Position numbers and translations under genes: made by a program. A DNA stretch of 64,000 nt from Pseudomonadota bacterium (GTDB lineage Bacteria; Pseudomonadota; Gammaproteobacteria; Acidithiobacillales; Acidithiobacillaceae). Positions 4,079 to 14,001 of this stretch are shown in pieces. The DNA is taken from the NCBI GenBank assembly GCA_021821885.1, contig JAKARO010000001.1, forward strand, positions 1-64,000, read 5' to 3'. The notes under the pieces are model-generated. The model did not search any database and had not been told where the DNA came from. It saw nothing but the letters and a program-made list of their open reading frames with translations. How positions within the stretch are numbered: position 1 is the first letter of the stretch; each line of letters starts with the position of its first letter.

Positions 4079-4375
4079 CTACTCATTTTTGGTTGAAATC
4101 GGGAACTCACGGCGAGCATGCACCACGTTCACGATCTCAATACAGGTGGCCGTAACACGATAGAGCACCATGTAGTTTGGATGCGCGACGATCTCACGCA
4201 AGCCCGGCACGCGATCGCTGATGCGGTACAGGTAGGGATGCTCTGACAGTGGCAACACACAGACGCGCAGGCGTTCCCACAGGCGTTCGGCTGCACTCAC
4301 ATCGTACTGACCGATGTAGTCTATGATAGTGGCCAGATCGGCGTCGGCCGACTCAAGCCAGAAGATGGGTAGCAT
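4079..4375 (-). CDS. ParE/RelE-family toxin
   Basis: This 98-residue protein has the family's compact layout: an N-terminal helical part (ESADADLATIIDYIGQ), then PGLREIVAHPNYMVLYRV and a C-terminal VVHARREFP. Members inhibit gyrase (ParE) or cleave mRNA on ribosomes (RelE). The arrangement DLATIIDYI, LREI, YMVLYRV and HARRE fits the ParE/RelE superfamily but does not decide the target. Its ATG shares one base with the antitoxin stop (TGATG), so the two are translationally coupled, antitoxin first. Confidence 0.88.
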   Translation of the reverse strand: MLPIFWLESADADLATIIDYIGQYDVSAAERLWERLRVCVLPLSEHPYLYRISDRVPGLREIVAHPNYMVLYRVTATCIEIVNVVHARREFPISTKNE

Positions 4376-4563
4376 CAGGGCGCTTTGCGCTGTTTGAGCC
4401 GTGCCAGTCGCTCGGCCATGCGTCGCTCAATCTCATCATGTGGGATGCTCGGGCGCGGGTCGGCCATGCTGGCGGCAGTCTTGGCCTGCAGCCAGGTCGT
4501 GTAGCTGGCCTCCTGCTCGGCGGTCTCAAACTCGGAGATGATAGATGGTAAAACGGCATTCAT
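4375..4563 (-). CDS. Antitoxin of the ParE/RelE pair
   Basis: This 62-residue protein should neutralise the toxin encoded immediately downstream and repress the shared promoter. The start at 4563 is chosen because AGAGGAG lies about 8 bases upstream and because related antitoxins begin with a similar MN-LPSIISEFET segment. A longer frame beginning 9 codons earlier lacks such a site. The C-terminal part (DPRPSIPHDEIERRMAERLARL) is the charged segment expected to wrap the toxin. The N-terminal part would be the DNA-binding or dimerisation part, but no fold can be assigned with confidence. Confidence 0.82.
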   Translation of the reverse strand: MNAVLPSIISEFETAEQEASYTTWLQAKTAASMADPRPSIPHDEIERRMAERLARLKQRKAP

Positions 4564-4657
4564 TCTGGGCGCTCCTCTAGTATCTATCATCAGTGAGGGT
4601 TTAAACTCCCATGCGGTCCCTAAGGTCTATATTAGGCGGTTTTCGCTCTTGCAGGAA

Positions 4658-5639: not shown

Positions 5640-5953
5640 CTATGGCTGTTTCCGTTGTCTTACGATAGGTCCTCGCGGATTACAGCGTTGCCGAAGCTGA
5701 TTGCTGGCCCTGAATGTCACCACCCGCCTTGCCTTGATCTGGAAGGGCTCGTTGGACCTGGGATTGCGACCCGGCCTTTCCCGCTTATCCCGCAGGTCAA
5801 AACGGCCGAAGCCGGGCAACAGCAGAGGTGCCCCAGAGGCCAGCACTTCGCGCATGCGGTCAAAAAAATATCGGCCAGCCCCTTGCAGGTTTTGTGGTCA
5901 AGGCCAGGCATGTCTACCAGGAAAGCGGCGATGTCCTGTCTAGTTACAGTCAT
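5640..5953 (-). pseudogene. ihfA: IHF-alpha/HU-like DNA-binding protein, frameshifted
   Basis: Two adjoining frames together make one IHF-alpha-like protein. The N-terminal part runs from 5953 (RQDIAAFLVDMPGLDHKTCK, then GLADIF). After a shift the second part reads DRMREVLASGAPLLLPGFG, RFDLRDKRERPGRNP and ARRVVTFRASNQL, which matches the DNA-bending arm and body of IHF-alpha. The change of frame falls in a run of seven T on the coding strand (5862-5868), where eight would keep the frame open. It may be a one-base deletion, a sequencing error, or a slippery site allowing -1 frameshifting (T TTT TTG). A ribosome binding site (AAAGGA) precedes the ATG. Confidence 0.82.
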
Positions 5954-6073: not shown

Positions 6074-6190
6074 TCAGCCTGTCTCGCACAGCCATTCCTG
6101 CATATAGGTGGTGGCGTTCTCGCCATCCCCCATCTTCTCGAAACCCATCAAGCGTATCGACTGCGGGCTGATGGGCACCAGCCTGGGGTC
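6074..6190 (-). pseudogene. C-terminal fragment of an unidentified gene
   Basis: About 39 codons reading RLMGFEKMGDGENATTYMQE and ending WLCETG look protein-like and run directly into the small ORF and the IHF-like gene. Upstream the frame runs antisense into the SRAP remnant and loses sense, so the 5' part seems to have been removed by a rearrangement near 6190. The family is unknown. Confidence 0.3.
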
Positions 6191-6249
6191 GTACAGCGGG
6201 GGGCAACGGGCATGCATCGCGGGGCAAGGCAGGTTCCAGCGCGGCCACG

Positions 6250-6596
6250 GGCTTCTATGAATGGCAAACTCTGGAATCCGGCAAGAAACAGTCCTGGTAC
6301 TTCGACAGCGCCGATGGGCAGGCGTTAGCCCTGGCAGGACACTGTGGGACCACTGGCATGACGGCAGCACGATCCCGGACAGTTGCACCATTCTGGTGGG
6401 TCCGCCCGATCCTGCCGTCACCGGCATTCATGACCGAAGTCCGGTCCTGCTGGGCGATGCGGCCATGTCGTTGTGGATCAGTCCGGCACTGAAGCCAGAA
6501 GATGTTTCCCGTGTGCTGGCCTTGCCGAACGACACGCTGACGGCGCAACCAGTGTCCCGTGTGGCGGATGATGGACTGTACTTGCTGACAGCCTGA
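6250..6596 (+). pseudogene. Degraded SRAP/YedK-family (HMCES-like) peptidase
   Basis: SRAP proteins shield abasic sites in single-stranded DNA by forming a crosslink through Cys2. Here GFYEWQTLESGKKQSWYFD (from 6250) is followed after a frameshift near 6340 (an extra AC in GGACACTGTGGG) by LWDHWHDG, IHDRSPVLLGD and ALPNDTLTAQPVS. The conserved Glu of FYEW and the His of IHDR remain, but the N-terminal half with the catalytic Cys2 is missing. At least one frameshift and a 5' truncation make a working protein unlikely. Confidence 0.8.
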
Positions 6597-6657
6597 CGAA
6601 TTCTGCTTCCCGGATAGCAAGGCCAAATCGGTACAAAAAAGCTATAGCAGGACACGA

Positions 6658-6842
6658 GTCACTTTATCTGGCGTTCCTTTGGAACGTTTAAGTTCATAGT
6701 GACCATATATTTAGTGATGACAACCATCTTGATTTAGGCTGCTGTCACCAATTCGTTTGGTGACAAGTGACTTAATAGCTATACCTCTACGTCACGGCTA
6801 TACCAGTCTGTAATTGGTTATCCGCAACCTATGAGGTGAATT
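6658..6842 (+). promoter_or_regulatory. Palindrome-rich control region upstream of the replication module
   Basis: Six GTCAC/GTGAC motifs start at 6658, 6699, 6744, 6760, 6767 and 6791. Those at 6744-6764 form a perfect 8-bp hairpin (GTCACCAA, loop TTCGT, TTGGTGAC). A second hairpin CGTTCC-TTT-GGAACG is at 6672-6686. TTATCCGCA at 6818-6826 differs by one base from the DnaA box TTATCCACA. GAGGTG precedes the ATG at 6843. This is probably the operator and promoter region of the plus-strand replication genes. Confidence 0.55.
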
Positions 6843-7286
6843 ATGCAAAAGTCTATGACGGAACTATTGTCAGGGTTGGTTTTGCCAGAGTGGCCGCAAC
6901 CCAAACCCGCAGCAGAAACCACGGCAGGCACACCCCAGGCACGGTTGGAACCACAGCCCTTGGCGACCCCGGCGCGATCGTCATGGGCAGAACCAGCACC
7001 AGTGGCGGAACCGGCAACCCCGGCCAAGCGAAAAGCCGGACGGCCCCGTATCCACGCCGAGCGCCCACTGTCTGGCCGTGAGAAGGCGGCGCGTTACCGG
7101 CAGAAGCGCAAGACGCTGGCGGCAGAAGCCATGACGGGCAACGTGGATGCCGCGGGCCTGCCCAGCAGGGATCTGTGCCTTGCCGTGGCGCGGATGCTGA
7201 ACCGTCCCAAAGACCTTGAGCTGCGCCAGATCGGGCTGCCCCTGGTGAAGGAACTGAGGCGCAGGCTGAAAACCCTGATTGGCTGA
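6843..7286 (+). CDS. Pro/Ala-rich AT-hook protein of the replication module
   Basis: This 147-residue protein has a low-complexity Pro/Ala N-terminal half (residues 15-60) and a basic centre (KRKAGRPRIHAERPL, residues 62-76) with an AT-hook-type GRPR core. A charged ARYRQKRKTLAAEA segment and a C-terminal helical part (RDLCLAVARMLNRPKDLELR) follow. It is likely to bind AT-rich DNA, perhaps the element's origin. GAGGTG 6 bases before the ATG supports the start. It is the first of three plus-strand genes ending in the primase-helicase. No named family was recognised. Confidence 0.7.
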   Translation: MQKSMTELLSGLVLPEWPQPKPAAETTAGTPQARLEPQPLATPARSSWAEPAPVAEPATPAKRKAGRPRIHAERPLSGREKAARYRQKRKTLAAEAMTGNVDAAGLPSRDLCLAVARMLNRPKDLELRQIGLPLVKELRRRLKTLIG

Positions 7287-7309
7287 GACAGAGCTATCCC
7301 GTTTCCCCT

Positions 7310-7473
7310 CACGCTATACCCCAGCGTGGAAATAAAAATCCACACGGCGGATGCCTCAGATGTGCTCTGGTCCGCCCCGGCTGGTCCCCGGATATATGCG
7401 CCCTGTGCGCCATACCCCACGGCCCAGATCATGGATGGGTTCACCCGAAAGGGTGGGCACATCTGAGGCATCC
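7310..7473 (+). ncRNA. Structured intergenic element with 17-bp inverted repeat
   Basis: GGATGCCTCAGATGTGC (7349-7365) and GCACATCTGAGGCATCC (7457-7473) are perfectly complementary. Inside the enclosed arm sits CACCC-GAAA-GGGTG (7442-7455), a GNRA-capped hairpin. Just upstream, CACGCT/AGCGTG (7310-7315, 7323-7328) competes with GTGGA/TCCAC (7326-7330, 7339-7343). The element ends about 30 bases before the next gene. It could be a leader RNA, a small RNA or a recombination site. Confidence 0.5.
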
Positions 7474-7503
7474 TGTACTTGACCTTGTTTAATGGGGTAT
7501 GAA

Positions 7504-8229
7504 ATGAAACATAGCAAAACGCCCAGCGCATGGGCCAAACTGCGCGCGCACGCTTACCGCCTCAGCGGTATTGCCATTATCCCGGTTATATTGCTTGCCC
7601 AGTTCGGCATATTGCCCCTCGTGCTGGCGGACCTCCTGCTCTCTGTTCTGGTTCTGGCGGCACTGGCGGCAAACGCCACCCATGTATTTGCCATTCTTAC
7701 GGGGGACCAGCAGAAACAGCAAACCGAAGGACAGGCATGGAAAGGCACGGCCGTAACGGTCCAGAACGGCTTTCGGTGGGCACGCCAGTTCTGGACGCCG
7801 GATCGCAATCATCCCCTGCGCGAAGTCGGCGCTATCGGCCTGAACCTGGCCCGTTTCCCCGCCCGGATTGCTGGCCGTCAGCCCGGCGGCAGCAAGACGG
7901 GTGCTGGTGGGCATAAAAAGCCCGCGTCCAGCGGTTCCGATGACGAAGGCGAAGGTGAACCGCCTGCACATCTGCCCCTCATCTGGACCACTCATGATCT
8001 GGCGGCCACCCTTGCGGTAAGTGCCAAGACGCTACAGAACCAGCCGCCGCATCATCTACCCCCCGCTATCCGCATCCCCGGCTGCCGTGGCCCACGTTAT
8101 CGTCTTCAGGATGTGATGGCATGGCTGGATGGCTTTTCTGCTGAACAACGCCCGGCCAGGCCTTTGCCCCGCAAAGTCAGGGGTCGCCCCAGAATTGCCC
8201 TGTCTTTGGGCAACGGGGGTGTGGCATGA
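7504..8229 (+). CDS. Membrane-anchored protein with C-terminal helix-turn-helix
   Basis: This 241-residue protein has two adjoining hydrophobic segments (about residues 22-38 and 40-58), a soluble linker rich in Gly/Ser/Glu, and a C-terminal region. That region (WTTHDLAATLAVSAKTLQ, then PGCRGPRYRLQDVMAWLD) resembles MerR/excisionase-type winged helix-turn-helix domains. A GRPR segment follows at the end. ATG at 7504 is preferred over 7492 because GGGG lies about 7 bases upstream and nothing suitable precedes 7492. Its stop overlaps the primase-helicase start (ATGA). A membrane-tethered DNA binder next to an origin could position or regulate the replicon (inference). Confidence 0.7.
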   Translation: MKHSKTPSAWAKLRAHAYRLSGIAIIPVILLAQFGILPLVLADLLLSVLVLAALAANATHVFAILTGDQQKQQTEGQAWKGTAVTVQNGFRWARQFWTPDRNHPLREVGAIGLNLARFPARIAGRQPGGSKTGAGGHKKPASSGSDDEGEGEPPAHLPLIWTTHDLAATLAVSAKTLQNQPPHHLPPAIRIPGCRGPRYRLQDVMAWLDGFSAEQRPARPLPRKVRGRPRIALSLGNGGVA

Positions 8230-10916
8230 AGACCGTTGCGGAACTTGTAGCAGAAGACCTGGCCCGTTCCGGGCTAACGCTGGACGACATGCAGGGCAAG
8301 GTGCTGACACATTTTGACGTGCAGCATGTGCTTGGAACGGATAATACCCCCGGTGCGTCGGGGGGATACAGTATCCCGTACCGCCGTTTCACGGGCGAGG
8401 GTGTCGTGGAAAACGGGCAGCCCTTTCTGCGGGTGCGGCTGGTCGGACCCCATTCCCCAGAAACGCCCCGCTATCTTTCCCGTCCCGACACCACGGCGCA
8501 CCTGTACGTCCCGCCGCAGCTTCTGGAGGCGCTTCGGGACAGCAAGGTTGGGAAGACCCTCATTATTACCGAAGGGGAAAAGAAGGCCGTGTCCGCGTGC
8601 AAGGCAGGCTTCCCCGCGGTGGCGCTGGCGGGCATCCAGATGTTCCGGGACTTCCGGGATAAGAACCATCTGGCCCCGGAAATACGCGACATCATACGCC
8701 AGCTTCGCGAAGAAGGCGCCATCGATACCGTGGTTGTCGTGTATGACAGCAACGGGAGGCCCATGACCAAGGCCACTATGCCCAAAAATGCGGCTGAATT
8801 TGGCAAGGGCCGGGAAACGCATGCGGTCGGGGGTGGACAACACGTACTGAATCCCGATGTGTACAAAGCGGGCCGCAAGCTGGCCCAGCTTATCCGCGAA
8901 ACCTTTAACGGGTTGCCCGTCGCGGTTACATGGGTACATCCTGCGCTTGAGGCGGTCAAGGGGCCGCGCGGCGGACACAGCCTGGTGTTAACAGACAAAA
9001 GCCGGGGCATCGACGACGCGCTTATCGGGGGGGGCGGCGAGGAAATAGCGGCGCTGATAAAGGACGCCGCTCACGACGCTGAAGCCCTCAGGCCGGATGC
9101 GGAAAACGAGGGTTATATTCCCCTTGGAACCCTCAACAGGGGTCTGGACATTGCCCTCTGGTCAAAACGGTCAGAAAATTTGATCACATTACCTGGGAAA
9201 GAATTGGTCAACATCAGCACGCTAACCCTCATAGCGGGCAGCTCTTTCCTGGAAACGCATTTCATCAAAATGGACAAGCAAGGCAACGTCAGCATCGATA
9301 ACCAGCGGGCGGCGCGGGCCATTGCGGACGATTGCAGCCTGAATGGCCGGTTCAATGAAGCGGATCGCGTGTTCGGGACCGGCACGTGGCAGGGCGACGA
9401 CGGGGGCTTGATCATCAATTCAGACGATGGCGCGTACAGGCAGGATGGGACCACCGTGCCCCGCATCGCCGTTGGCCGGAAAGCCATCTACACCCGCGAG
9501 GGCACTTATCCTCCACCCGCGTTCCGCGAGGTATCCGACGCGAACTACAAGGCAGTTATACAGAAGATCAGTTCCTCGCTCAGGCAGTGGCGGTATGCCT
9601 CAGAGGTGGGTGATGATCTGGTGATGGGCTGGATGGTGATGTCGGTGTTCCTGGGGGCCATGACATCGCGCCCCTCGCTGTGGCTGGTGGCCCCTCGCGG
9701 GTCCGGCAAGACGCAGTTGGCCCGATTCATCAAATCCTGCCTGGGCGGGTACGCATGGCATACGGACATGGCGAAGGAATCCACCGGGGCCGGTATCCGG
9801 CAGATGCTGCAGCGGTCGTCCAGTCCTTGCATCATGGATGAAATGGAAAAGGACAACACGGACGGCATGTACGTCAACGGCGAGCGGGCCACGGCGGCGA
9901 TTCTCAGCCTGCTGCGTAGTGGATACTCGGCGGATTCCGATGTGCGCAAAGGCACGGCGGACCAGACGGGCAAGAGCTTCCGGGTCATGACCAGCTTTTG
10001 CTGTGTATCCATTGCCGATCCGGCTTTGGAACCCGCCGATCTGACCCGCATTGCGAAGATTTATCTGAAGCCCATCGACCACAGCGGAAAAATTGGCAAG
10101 CCGCCTGCCCTGTTGAGTAAAGAGGACGCCGCGGCATTCTTCTGGGGTACGATCCAGCGGTGGGAACAGTATCAGGCCATCTTCGCCGAAGTGCGGGACC
10201 AGTGGCTGGCCGTTGCCGGAAACGGCGATGCCCGCGAAGTGGATACCTTCGGCGTACTGCTGGCGGCGGCGCTGGCAGCGCGGAACTGCCCCGTGGATCG
10301 TGTGCGCGGCATGCTGGATATGGCCCTGCCAACTCTCATGGACCAGATTCAGGAAGCCCGCGAGGCATCGCAGGAGGCCAACCTGATCCTGGAGACGTTA
10401 TTGTCCCTGCACATCGAGATCCAGCGGCACGAAACCGACGACCGGGGGAACGGGCGCATCCAGCGGGAAAAAATGTCCGTTGGGCGAGCCCTGCAGGCGG
10501 CGATTGCGGTGCGAAACGGCGACGAGGCGCAGGCGCTCGCAGGCGTAGGCATCAGGCTCACCACAGTGGGCGACCAGCAGTATCTCGCCGTTGCCGGGCG
10601 GCATGCCACCCTCGCCAGCCTGTTCCAGGGCACCCGGTGGCGTAAGGACGGTGCATGGTCGGCTGGCTTGCGTGAGGTTGAAGGGGTGATCCGAAATCAT
10701 CCCGTCAAGCTCGATGGAACGCCCAAAAGATGCACTTTGGTGCCGCTGTCCGCGCTGAACATCGAGGCCGACACGCCCATCAGTGCCGAGGGATCGGTGG
10801 TTGCGTTCCCCGGCCCGAAGAACGGCTTTGGGGCCGCCAGCATGAACCGGGCCGGTCCGCCGTCCGCTTCTGACCATCCCGGCAGCGACCTATGCGAAAC
10901 GGACGTTCCGTTCTAG
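8226..10916 (+). CDS. Toprim-AAA primase-helicase replication protein
   Basis: This 896-residue protein is the likely replication protein of the element. The N-terminal part carries a DUF3854/Toprim-like domain (TLIITEGEKKAVSACKAG near residue 111, catalytic-type Glu; VVVVYDSNGRP near 172). The central part is an AAA/SF3-like ATPase with Walker A PRGSGKTQ (near 491) and Walker B CIMDEME (near 535). This plan is used by plasmid and phage-satellite primase-helicases. The start overlaps the upstream stop by 4 bases, and a strong terminator follows. No separate initiator gene was found, so origin recognition may rest with this protein or the small upstream ones. Confidence 0.88.
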   Translation: MKTVAELVAEDLARSGLTLDDMQGKVLTHFDVQHVLGTDNTPGASGGYSIPYRRFTGEGVVENGQPFLRVRLVGPHSPETPRYLSRPDTTAHLYVPPQLLEALRDSKVGKTLIITEGEKKAVSACKAGFPAVALAGIQMFRDFRDKNHLAPEIRDIIRQLREEGAIDTVVVVYDSNGRPMTKATMPKNAAEFGKGRETHAVGGGQHVLNPDVYKAGRKLAQLIRETFNGLPVAVTWVHPALEAVKGPRGGHSLVLTDKSRGIDDALIGGGGEEIAALIKDAAHDAEALRPDAENEGYIPLGTLNRGLDIALWSKRSENLITLPGKELVNISTLTLIAGSSFLETHFIKMDKQGNVSIDNQRAARAIADDCSLNGRFNEADRVFGTGTWQGDDGGLIINSDDGAYRQDGTTVPRIAVGRKAIYTREGTYPPPAFREVSDANYKAVIQKISSSLRQWRYASEVGDDLVMGWMVMSVFLGAMTSRPSLWLVAPRGSGKTQLARFIKSCLGGYAWHTDMAKESTGAGIRQMLQRSSSPCIMDEMEKDNTDGMYVNGERATAAILSLLRSGYSADSDVRKGTADQTGKSFRVMTSFCCVSIADPALEPADLTRIAKIYLKPIDHSGKIGKPPALLSKEDAAAFFWGTIQRWEQYQAIFAEVRDQWLAVAGNGDAREVDTFGVLLAAALAARNCPVDRVRGMLDMALPTLMDQIQEAREASQEANLILETLLSLHIEIQRHETDDRGNGRIQREKMSVGRALQAAIAVRNGDEAQALAGVGIRLTTVGDQQYLAVAGRHATLASLFQGTRWRKDGAWSAGLREVEGVIRNHPVKLDGTPKRCTLVPLSALNIEADTPISAEGSVVAFPGPKNGFGAASMNRAGPPSASDHPGSDLCETDVPF

Positions 10917-10941
10917 ATTTACCGTAGTTCACCTGGTATTG

Positions 10942-10967
10942 ACCCGCCCTCACCGGCGGGTTTTTTT
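10942..10967 (+). terminator. Rho-independent terminator of the replication module
   Basis: CCCGCC (10943-10948) pairs with GGCGGG (10955-10960), followed directly by seven T (10961-10967). It lies 26 bases after the primase-helicase stop. Confidence 0.9.
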
Positions 10968-11044
10968 GTGTCTGAGGCTGGAGGTGGCAGCCGCAGGTGC
11001 AGGCGGCGAGGCGGCAGGTGGGTGTCACTGGGACGGGGGTTGCA

Positions 11045-11362
11045 GGTAACCTGCCGCGAAAAAGGTAACTGGGCGCGAAAAGGTAACCGGGAAGTAACCA
11101 GTTATTTTTAATTCTTTCATATAGTTAGCACAGCCGGTTACCTGGTTACTTCAGTTACCTGTGAAAATGATACATATGGTGGAAAATTTTTATAGATAAG
11201 ACTGTGGTGGTTATCTATAAAAAATTCCCGCGTATAGGGGAAAACAGGAAGTAACCGAAGTAACCGATGCGTATATGTATCTGTTTTTATTTGTTTTTTA
11301 CTGTTACTTTTTGGTTACTTTTTGGTTGCCTCCCGGCAACCAAAAAGTAACCAGCGGGTTAC
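11045..11362. other. Iteron cluster, probable replication origin (oriV)
   Basis: Thirteen copies of GTAAC or its complement GTTAC occur in about 320 bases, starting at 11046, 11065, 11083, 11094, 11137, 11145, 11154, 11251, 11260, 11303, 11314, 11347 and 11358. The early ones sit in a longer unit, GCGAAAA(A)GGTAAC, repeated 18 bases apart. AT-rich stretches separate the groups. Chance would give about 0.6 copies at equal base frequencies. Position next to the primase-helicase makes an iteron-type origin the best reading. Confidence 0.75.
11312..11353. repeat. 19-bp perfect inverted repeat with 4-base loop
   Basis: TGGTTACTTTTTGGTTGCC (11312-11330), loop TCCC, then its exact complement (11335-11353). 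Each arm carries one iteron core. No T-run follows on either side, so it is not an ordinary terminator. It could extrude as a cruciform or serve as a single-strand priming site. Confidence 0.85.
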
Positions 11363-11965
11363 CGGTGGCAGGCGACGACAGCAGAACAGGCTCAGGCCGC
11401 ACGATTCCGAGGAAGCGGTAGGGTAAAGCACCCCTTTGGGTCAGCACACGGCGGGACGGCCACGGGGAAAAGCCTTTAAGCGGTTTATAAGCTATATCTC
11501 TATTTTATCGACCCCCGGCTGACCGGGAGCGCAGGCGAGCCTTCGGCAAAAGTGGGGGGTCCGTGCTCAGAACCGAAGCCCCCTTGCCGCATGGAAGCCC
11601 AGCAACGGCAGGCAGGGTGGCGACCTCCATTCGGGCGTGATGGCTCTCAGGCAGGATAAAGTTATATCTCTATTTTTTATGTTTAGCCTTAAGAGGGAAC
11701 GCCAGATAAAGTGCTTTTCGTCAGGGTATGGCTTTTCCCGGTGACATCGATGTTGGCCCCCTCATTTCCCCGGAAGCGTTATCGGGACTGGCTCTGCTTC
11801 GGACCGGGGAAGGCCGGGTATCAGACGGCCCTCCCCGTACTCCCGTTGGTGGCAGGGGCGGTTCGATACCGCTTCCGCCTGCACCTGGCAGTCCCCCTTC
11901 TTCCTGACGGTTTACCCCTGACATGCGCCTTGCCAGCCACAAGCTGCGGTCAAACCCCGCCAGCG
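11363..11965. other. Non-coding stretch between origin and integrase
   Basis: About 600 bases without a convincing gene; short frames at 11711-12229 and 11721-11969 lack motifs. It holds AGCTATATCTCTA (11490-11502) and AGTTATATCTCTA (11660-11672), near-identical to AGCTATACCTCTA at 6777-6789. On the minus strand TATCCTGC (11651-11658) fits the IncP-type oriT nick consensus YATCCTGY, but no relaxase gene is in the window. Confidence 0.45.
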
Positions 11966-12951
11966 TCACCCGATAAGCTTCACCAGATCTTCCGGTTTCA
12001 GGTGGGTGTACCGCTTCAGCATTTGCATGTTCTTGTGTCCGGTGATGGCGGCGACCTGCATCGGATTCAGGCCCTTTTCAAACAGGCGGCTGGTAGCTTC
12101 GTGCCTCAAGTCATGAAAAGTCAGGCCTTCGATGCCGGCCTTTTTCACGGCCTTGTTATAACTGGCCCGCATTCCTTCTGGCGTATAGGTCCAGACGCGG
12201 CCATCCAGATTTCGTGGCATGTCACGTAGCGTTTGCAGGGCCCTGGTGGTCAGAGGCACGACCCGCCTCTCGCCATTTTTCGTGTCATCCAGTGTTGTGG
12301 TGCGCTGTGCCAGATTCACCTTGTCCCAGGTCAGTCCCATGATCTCACCTTGCCGCATGGCCGTCTCAATGGCGAGAGTGACAATGGCAGCGAGTTCCGG
12401 ATTCAGGGCACGGCAGGCGTTAAGCAGCCGTTCATCTTCGTCACCCACCAGGCGACGGTCACGGCCTCTGGGCAGTTTGGGTTTACGCACAAGCTCTGCA
12501 GGGTTGCTGAGGGCTTCCATGCCCCACTCGGTACGCGCCACGTTGAACAGGTGGGACAATAGGGCCAGGTGTTGGCGGATTTGCCCTCGGCTTCCATGTC
12601 GCGCATGACGGAAGCAATGTCCCGGCCACGAATGGTGGCCAGAAACATTTGGGCTATTGGGCGTGATTGCCAGAGGTGCAGGACGCTAATTTCCTGGCGG
12701 CGCCCCTTTTTTGCGGGGACGACTTCCTCGGCATAACGGGCAAGAGCTTCCCCCAGCGTCGTGCTTTCGCTTTCCCCGCGATCACGCCACACCCCGCGTT
12801 CCATTTCTGACTCGATGATGGTTGCCCATGCCTGGGCATCCGCCCTGGTTCGGAAGGTTTTCGTCTGGGGCGGATATCCCTTGCGCTGAATCTGCACCTG
12901 ATAGCCAATGACGATGCCGTCACGGTCTTTTCTGGGTCGGATGGATGCCAT
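11966..12951 (-). pseudogene. int: Tyrosine recombinase/integrase, frameshifted
   Basis: The island's integrase reads from tRNA-Met inwards. The first frame (start 12951, GAGGG upstream) encodes the arm-binding and SAM-like core-binding part (GYQVQIQRKGYPPQTKTFRT, then ALARYAEEVVPAKKGRRQ). Near 12565-12575 the frame changes, and homologues appear to have about four more codons there, so a short deletion is likely. The second frame encodes the full catalytic domain: Arg in ETAMRQGEIMGL, HDLRHEATSRLF, AAITGHKNMQ and the Tyr of KRYTH. All catalytic residues are present, but the two halves are out of frame. Confidence 0.88.
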
Positions 12952-13022
12952 TTTTGCCCTCATTTTGGATGCCCTGCCTGGGCACAGTTGGGCACAATTT
13001 GGGCAAAAAATCAATTTGGCGC

Positions 13023-13053
13023 AAAAAAAGCACCTAGACATTTGCCTAAGTGC
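13023..13053 (-). terminator. Terminator downstream of tRNA-Met
   Basis: On the minus strand GCACTTAG pairs with CTAGGTGC (one mismatch, 13030-13053) and is followed by seven T (13029-13023). It lies 10 bases beyond the tRNA CCA end and so sits inside or beside the attachment junction. Confidence 0.8.
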
Positions 13054-13063
13054 TTGATTTACT

Positions 13064-13140
13064 TGGTGGCGCTTCAGGGACTCGAACCCCGGACACGCGG
13101 ATTATGATTCCGCTGCTCTAACCAACTGAGCTAAAGCGCC
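13064..13140 (-). tRNA. tRNA-Met (CAT anticodon)
   Basis: The complement of this stretch folds as a 77-base cloverleaf: acceptor GGCGCTT/AAGCGCC, D arm AGCTCAGTTGGTTAGAGC, anticodon stem GCGGA/TCCGC with loop ATCATAA giving CAT, T arm GGGTTCGAGTCCC, and encoded CCA. The CAT anticodon could also mark tRNA-Ile with modified C34, but the body resembles elongator tRNA-Met. It is the integration target of the island. Confidence 0.95.
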
Positions 13141-13221
13141 ATCGGTAGGCGATTAAATCCCGAACCCCCATTTCCTGTCAAGGGAAAGGAATACTTCCTG
13201 AAAAAGGATTTCCCAGGCTGG

Positions 13222-14001
13222 TTACACCAGGAGTCGCCGCCGGAAAAGCCGGAGGGAAAGGGTATAGCCGGCGAGGGCAAATCCTCCCAGTACCAGGAGA
13301 TGGATCCAGGCATCCTGGGGGAGCCGGCCCGTCAGCAGTGGACGCAGAAGCAAGACGGCATGGGTCAGAGGAAGAGCCAGAGCAATCTCGCGAACTGGCA
13401 GGGGCAGGGTATGAATCGGATAAAAAACCCCACAGAACAGGAACATCGGTGTTACGCCAAGAGTAAAGTAGTACATGAAAAAATCATAGCTTCGCGCAAT
13501 GGCGGTAAAGCAGAGGGCAATCGCGGAAAAGGAGAGGCCCACCAGGAATATTACGGGAATGGCAAGAAACAGCCACCGCCAGCTGATAGCCCCGAAACCG
13601 CTCGACACAATGATAATTGCCATCGCGCTGATCAGACCTTTCACGGCACACCAGAGGAGCTCTCCGCCCAGAATGTCGGCAATCTCCATTGGAGTGGCCA
13701 AAATGGCAGCATAAGTCTGCTGGATGCTCAGGCGGGTATAGGCCGAGTACAGCCCCTCGAAAGTGGCCGTATTCATGACGCTGCTGGCCGTGATACCCGA
13801 GGCGATAAAGGTCATGTAGGGGAGATTTTCCATTTTCCCTACAAAATGGCCCAGACCATAGCCCAGAGCCAGCAGATAGAGAAGGGGATCGCCAAAATTG
13901 CCCAGCAGGCTTGGTATCAGCAGTTTGCGCCAGACCAGAAAATTCCGGCTGAGCAGGGCAAGGGCTCCCCGCCCCGGCCACCAGCGCGTGTGGGCCGTCA
14001 T
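13222..14001 (-). CDS. ABC-2 type permease, NodJ-like
   Basis: This 259-residue inner-membrane protein has about six hydrophobic segments, among them LIPSLLGNFGDPLLYLLALG near the start and FFMYYFTLGVTPMFLFCG, PLTHAVLLLRPLLTG in the second half, typical of ABC-2 exporters of the NodJ group. It should form the channel for the ATPase encoded just upstream, with which it overlaps by 4 bases (ATGA). The substrate cannot be inferred; NodIJ proper exports lipochitooligosaccharides, but many relatives sit outside nodulating bacteria. Confidence 0.88.
   Translation of the reverse strand: MTAHTRWWPGRGALALLSRNFLVWRKLLIPSLLGNFGDPLLYLLALGYGLGHFVGKMENLPYMTFIASGITASSVMNTATFEGLYSAYTRLSIQQTYAAILATPMEIADILGGELLWCAVKGLISAMAIIIVSSGFGAISWRWLFLAIPVIFLVGLSFSAIALCFTAIARSYDFFMYYFTLGVTPMFLFCGVFYPIHTLPLPVREIALALPLTHAVLLLRPLLTGRLPQDAWIHLLVLGGFALAGYTLSLRLFRRRLLV

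Follow-up and report, generated by a model that had tools for sequence, protein, structure and literature searches.

The DNA analysed here (the window) is the 64,000-nucleotide stretch that opens a 179,725-base contig of an Acidithiobacillus-family genome (GCA_021821885.1, JAKARO010000001.1). Its features of interest are collected in Table 1. The original prediction had named an AT-hook ORF, an ORF with two membrane segments and a helix-turn-helix (HTH), a primase-helicase and iterons, and all four lie where it placed them, with the membrane-segment HTH protein indeed encoded ahead of the primase-helicase (PRIM). It made no mention of the frameshifted integrase which, together with a tRNA-Met gene, adjoins the module.

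Table 1. Features of the replication module and its surroundings. G, C and L numbers, here and in the text, denote genomes, contigs and loci, respectively; > and < give iteron orientation.
Feature	Position	Strand	Basis or remark
Left bracket site	6637..6677	+	boxes AAAAAGCTATAGC - 13 nt - CTTTATCTGGCGTTCC; inverted repeat with 11696-11736
AT-hook protein, 147 aa, accessory	6843..7286	+	core KRKAGRPRIH
Conserved structured RNA (or DNA hairpin)	7313..7474	+	between AT-hook and membrane/HTH genes
Membrane-segment/HTH/AT-hook protein, 245 aa, accessory	7492..8229	+	ORF, hydropathy, model
PRIM, fused primase-helicase, proposed self-initiator, 896 aa	8226..10916	+	ORF, domains, fold match
Rho-independent terminator-like hairpin after PRIM	10941..10968	+	near-identical sequence 3' of PRIM in L028
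Origin, GTAACC/GGTTAC iterons (n = 10)	11046..11362		3' of PRIM, after the terminator-like hairpin; two halves flanking the core
First iteron set	11046-11149		starts 11046>, 11083>, 11094>, 11136<, 11144<
AT-rich core (66% AT), proposed melting site	11150..11250		imperfect palindrome 11181-11199 / 11211-11229
Second iteron set	11251-11362		starts 11251>, 11260>, 11313<, 11347>, 11357<
Right bracket site	11696..11736	-	inverted copy of left site
Tyrosine integrase	11966..13041	-	frameshifted
tRNA-Met (CAT), proposed integration site	13064..13140	-	

PRIM is laid out as an N-terminal DUF3854/Toprim region, an AAA/SF3-like middle part and a C-terminal domain at about residues 757-853; the protein has the Walker A motif GSGKT. 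The DUF3854 match (Pfam; E 4e-8, 33.5 bits against a curated cut-off of 23) is found in all six aligned relatives as well, the model of the N-terminal part resembles DnaG primase cores (Foldseek, E 3e-5), and primase PHROGs match the C-terminal two thirds of the protein. Model confidence is low to moderate in the helicase and C-terminal regions; hence the assignment of an iteron-binding domain rests on its distribution and not on structure. The domain at 757-853 recurs in other helicases that are accompanied by such arrays, and it is absent from the AT-hook and membrane/HTH proteins. It is also present in Bro-N proteins encoded just past the F. caldus-type origins (L019 4679-5710, L020 13993-15084, L021 5219-6346), which are possible rivals for iteron binding. 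A sequence search of solved structures returned P-loop-level or chance matches only, and a pattern search for viral relatives of the helicase half returned none. Pfam detects no Rep initiator domain, such as Rep_3 or RepA_C, in any of the module's three ORFs, in agreement with the earlier claim that a separate classical Rep gene is lacking.

The GTAACC/GGTTAC words of the origin are modestly above chance in number (10 versus a shuffled mean of 5.1 and maximum of 11), and so is the word AAGTAACC, with 6 occurrences (shuffled mean 2.3, maximum 5). The iterons are, however, arranged in mirror symmetry around position 11199 (p about 0.004). Mirrored arrays 3' of a primase-helicase gene are present in the window, G018, G025 and G026 and as the second array of G023; the cores of the related loci measure 92-112 nt with 56-76% AT, and their layouts are likewise mirrored. 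When compared with random positions, six of the eight arrays show significant symmetry; the two CGCACA arrays, in G023 and G008, do not (p about 0.11). In the F. caldus-type loci L020 and L021, 12 of 12 sites are symmetric, as are 10 of 10 in L175 and L176 and 10 of 11 in L171, which have more distant helicases, the centres there having been picked to maximise symmetry. The array of L173, again beside a more distant helicase, is mirror-symmetric too. The iteron word itself varies by locus (GTAACC, GTAACA, CGCACA, GGTTCC, CTTACC, CCTGGA). At L022 (G023, 11650-13372), a single PRIM gene is followed by two mirrored arrays, one of CGCACA and one of GGTTAC.

A search for the three-gene order in other genomes, as had been proposed, found AT-hook, membrane/HTH and PRIM genes in succession in G018 and G023, and in G008 the same order split over contigs, with insertion-sequence genes inside PRIM. 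In G026, the AT-hook gene, the RNA and the membrane/HTH gene stand ahead of a different primase-helicase (PriCT_2 and DUF5906); homology between its alternative primase (G026-C198) and the helicase half of PRIM was rejected, as no convincing match was obtained. In G007 and G004, PRIM lies near polymerase-like and SSB-like genes (by resemblance), and no AT-hook or membrane/HTH homologue is found near it. In the F. caldus-type loci L019-L021, PRIM is present and both accessory genes are missing. Outside this genome, a survey of 399 genomes of the phylum yielded distant relatives of the helicase only.

These natural combinations bear on which protein reads the iterons. Between G018 and G023, the AT-hook proteins are 89% and the HTH parts 95% identical, whereas PRIM is 42% identical and the iterons beside it read GTAACA versus CGCACA. 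Between the window and G026-C198, the HTH parts are 79% identical, the primase-helicases are unrelated and the iterons are GTAACC versus CCTGGA. Thus, the iteron word changes with the primase-helicase and not with the AT-hook/HTH parts; moreover, loci with PRIM and no accessory genes keep symmetric arrays (seen in L020 and L021). The simplest reading of these sequences is that the primase-helicase would read the iterons, with residues 757-853 as the best candidate domain. The contrast between G018 and G023 is not a clean one, since G023 has a second array with GGTTAC, like that of the window.

The original prediction had instead cast the membrane protein as the origin binder, which would tether the replicon to the membrane. 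In the 245-aa protein, an HTH-like domain and an AT-hook do occur together with two hydrophobic segments, the stop codon of its gene overlaps the start of PRIM (ATGA), and members of its family stand directly upstream of other replication genes. There is also a precedent in p16.7 of phage phi29, a membrane DNA-binding replication protein. Nevertheless, we consider this role very improbable. The HTH parts are 95% and 79% identical in the two comparisons above despite different iterons, PRIM and its origin occur without a membrane/HTH gene in L019-L021, and 3 of the 14 family members examined lack an N-terminal hydrophobic segment. On the two contrasts and the F. caldus-type loci, the membrane/HTH protein was rejected as the iteron reader. 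The claim of origin binding is therefore not supported: iterons change while the AT-hook/HTH parts remain 89-95% identical, and PRIM, in L020 and L021 together with its array, does without the accessory genes. The phi29 protein p16.7 is named in PMC4974454.

The two hydrophobic segments of the membrane/HTH protein give Kyte-Doolittle peaks (19-residue window) of 1.95 at residue 23 and 2.67 at residue 40, and a GRPR motif lies at residue 231 near the C-terminus. The model, which is of low confidence (mean pLDDT 50), has long helices at 13-37 and 43-70 and, beyond a linker that is disordered, a segment resembling a winged HTH at 164-214. Pfam gives no match for this protein, and its best family match is an excisionase/regulator profile (E 1.6e-4). 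The family is present in 18 of the 29 family genomes and, in most of the cases read, the next gene downstream encodes a primase, a helicase, a RepA-like protein or an HTH protein (identities mostly by resemblance). An N-terminal hydrophobic segment is found in 11 of the 14 members examined; the constant part consists of the linker, the HTH and the GRPR end. Membrane segments are thus optional in this family. Our best guess is that the protein is an accessory regulator or localiser rather than an initiator, and membrane placement through sites other than the iterons would be possible. The protein was not found in PLSDB plasmids or in phage records.

The AT-hook gene has homologues in exactly 5 of the 29 family genomes (four besides the window), each upstream of a membrane/HTH gene. 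Strong matches to the RNA between the two genes are confined to exactly five genomes, namely those with the AT-hook plus membrane/HTH unit. This conserved 160-nt segment (z -3.1) contains perfect 17-nt arms (7349-7365 / 7457-7473) that form a long-range helix. Six of its pairs are changed on both sides, versus a shuffled mean of 2.8 and 0-2 when the alignment is slid; the comparison comprises five sequences, of which two hardly differ, and this covariation is therefore supportive rather than conclusive of a conserved structure. Membership in a known RNA family was rejected, with no match in Rfam. Two mutually exclusive pairings can be drawn, GGCGGA...UCCGCC or the 17-nt helix. As far as our searches reach, the accessory unit is undescribed; the covarying RNA structure and the inverted bracket sites are new here.

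The bracket sites follow a two-box pattern, AAAAAGCTAYANC - 13 nt - CTTTATCTGGCGTTCM, which in inverted orientation encloses the module in every complete locus. The core word occurs 14 times in 7 of the 29 family genomes, mostly as a + / - pair around a replication module, and not once in a reversed-pattern control, by which chance occurrence was rejected. No such site was found in IMG/VR. Where both share a contig, the left site is about 180-360 nt upstream of the AT-hook gene. At L070 (G017, C135:79817), a lone left-type site follows an IHF-like gene; MobC-like and relaxase-like genes then take the place of the replication module, and type I restriction genes adjoin.

Each of the five genomes that encode the AT-hook protein has such sites, G026 with its different primase-helicase included. 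This would be expected if the membrane/HTH and AT-hook proteins tethered or partitioned the element through the bracket sites or other DNA. On these sequences we regard that function as unlikely: sites also occur with no accessory genes nearby (G017 and G018-C98, possibly as remnants), and the exchange of outer flanks described below fits recombination sites equally well. Somewhat less likely still is a fuller version, in which the AT-hook protein and the HTH/AT-hook protein anchored in the membrane would both recognise the sites and keep the ends of the module, and not its origin, at the membrane, while the RNA would set the expression of both and the accessory unit as a whole would be portable and joined to unrelated primase-helicases.

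Alternatively, the bracket sites may delimit a cassette capable of transposition or inversion, in which case the replicon could move or flip without the integrase. The module of G023 sits at the distal end of its island, after the IHF-like gene; that of the window is found between the integrase and SRAP genes and, with respect to the tRNA, points the other way. Furthermore, the left outer flank of the window matches right-type outer flanks (local score 33 for G025 and 29 for G018, out of 45, with a random maximum of 11), whereas no match is seen between the inner flanks. Such matching of outer but not inner flanks across left and right types suggests exchange at the shared core. The examples are few, no recombinase gene for such a cassette was identified, and no target-site duplication was shown; a mobile cassette is therefore a tentative proposal that we place below even odds, and it is compatible with a self-initiating PRIM.

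The replication cassette would be part of a mobile element integrated at tRNA-Met, in keeping with the original assignment to an integrative element. The integrase of the window is about 13 nt short compared with an intact 347-aa homologue (L028, G025). A second, distal att copy was not found in the window's assembly, and the left end of the island falls outside the contig. In the complete chromosome of G023, the island spans 16.6 kb from tRNA-Met to a 27-nt duplicate of the tRNA's 3' end, and the island's integrase is also broken. On the module's other side, the IHF-like and SRAP genes of the window are frameshifted or fragmented (5640-5953 and about 6100-6600). G018 and G023 have an intact IHF-like/SRAP pair with a 230-aa protein of unknown function between the two, adjoining the left bracket site. 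At the contig start, the window also encodes the R subunit of a type I restriction system (15-2102, Pfam) and, further in, a small toxin-antitoxin-like pair (4079-4590, by resemblance), both likely island cargo.

Three flanking genes (integrase, IHF-like and SRAP) are thus broken in the window, and its iterons are fewer and more degenerate than in most related loci; for these reasons the window copy may be a relic. The damage to these genes and to the G023 integrase might suggest that the island has decayed and the module no longer replicates, but we hold this to be rather unlikely. None of the module's three ORFs is broken, the RNA is intact as well, the gene order is intact in other genomes, and the frameshifts could be assembly errors.

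The plan of the module is known from other elements. In phage-inducible chromosomal islands (PICIs), pri and rep are sometimes fused and the origin follows immediately 3', with two iteron sets around an AT-rich region (PMC6092414). PICIs share with the window a primase plus initiator-helicase, the 3' origin, iteron words that vary among elements and chromosomal integration (PMC6092414). Here, primase and presumed initiator-helicase are encoded in one 896-aa ORF, and the two iteron sets around the 66% AT core lie immediately 3' of it. The module differs from PICIs in its AT-hook/RNA/membrane-HTH unit, its bracket sites and its Acidithiobacillia hosts; moreover, a PHROGs scan of ten further ORFs in the complete island of G023 detected no gene for packaging or the capsid (terS, capsid morphogenesis). 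The alpha protein of satellite phage P4 (NC_001609) is likewise a single primase-helicase protein with the crr iterons directly 3' after a terminator, but P4 has two separated sites and other accessory genes. The P4 ori octamers run in an order (<<<> <<) that recurs, as a resemblance only, in both halves of the second array of G023 and of the G026-C198 array. Homology of the PRIM helicase half to alpha was rejected (hhalign with the helicase plus C-terminal regions: probability 5%, 21 columns, the Walker A stretch only).

Among plasmids, the cyanobacterial Rep proteins CyRepA1 and CyRepA2 also join an N-terminal DUF3854 to a C-terminal helicase domain and support autonomous replication, with rolling circle considered for CyRepA2; their helicase is of the DEXD type, unlike the AAA/SF3-like one here, and they reside on plasmids and not on islands (PMC10079941). 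The crenarchaeal plasmid pRN1 has a small DNA-binding repressor, a primase-helicase with a DNA-binding domain and a 3' origin, but its enzyme is an archaeal prim-pol and its origin a stem-loop without mirror iterons (PMC4234260). RepA_3 and RepA_4 of F. caldus plasmids are multidomain replicases that combine a primase with a C-terminal DNA-binding domain and lie next to oriV and a small gene associated with replication (KfrA or ORF2), although they are shorter (335-437 aa) (PMC12375680); these plasmid modules differ also in that the membrane/HTH protein is not found in PLSDB. The original prediction had regarded the lack of a Rep gene as unusual, which does not hold, since a fused Pri-Rep with a 3' origin was already published for PICIs (PMC6092414) and DUF3854-helicase proteins sustain plasmid replication in cyanobacteria (PMC10079941). 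Its interpretation thus stands for the replication module, the missing classical Rep and the membrane/HTH gene order, and is not supported for the novelty of that lack and for the origin-binder role. Judged by its sequence, the locus is a genuine replication module that follows a known plan, sits in a new setting and carries an extra accessory unit.

Gene content, gene order, the mirrored arrays of the relatives, iterons that track the primase-helicase and RNA covariation were all computed here. The explanation that we favour, and consider probable, is that of a fused, self-initiating PRIM with a mirror-image origin 3' of its gene and an accessory unit for control. PRIM would act as primase, helicase and initiator in one (Pri-Rep), its C-terminal domain binding the iterons of both half-origins. 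Helicase rings would then form head to head, one per half-origin, and melt the AT-rich core of about 100 nt, upon which the Toprim domain would prime bidirectional replication. The AT-hook protein, the RNA and the membrane/HTH protein would most likely control PRIM expression, and perhaps location or copy number, as a unit combinable with other primase-helicases. We infer each of these activities, from iteron binding to regulation.

A constant mirror geometry with changing iteron words suggests that position, and not sequence, is what is conserved in this class of origins, and that the class extends beyond phage satellites. Since initiator, iteron word and accessory genes are naturally swapped among these loci, simple exchange tests could ask which protein reads the origin. 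Finally, the membrane/HTH/AT-hook family, encoded just ahead of several unrelated replication genes, is uncharacterised and worth testing in organisms for which genetic tools are few.
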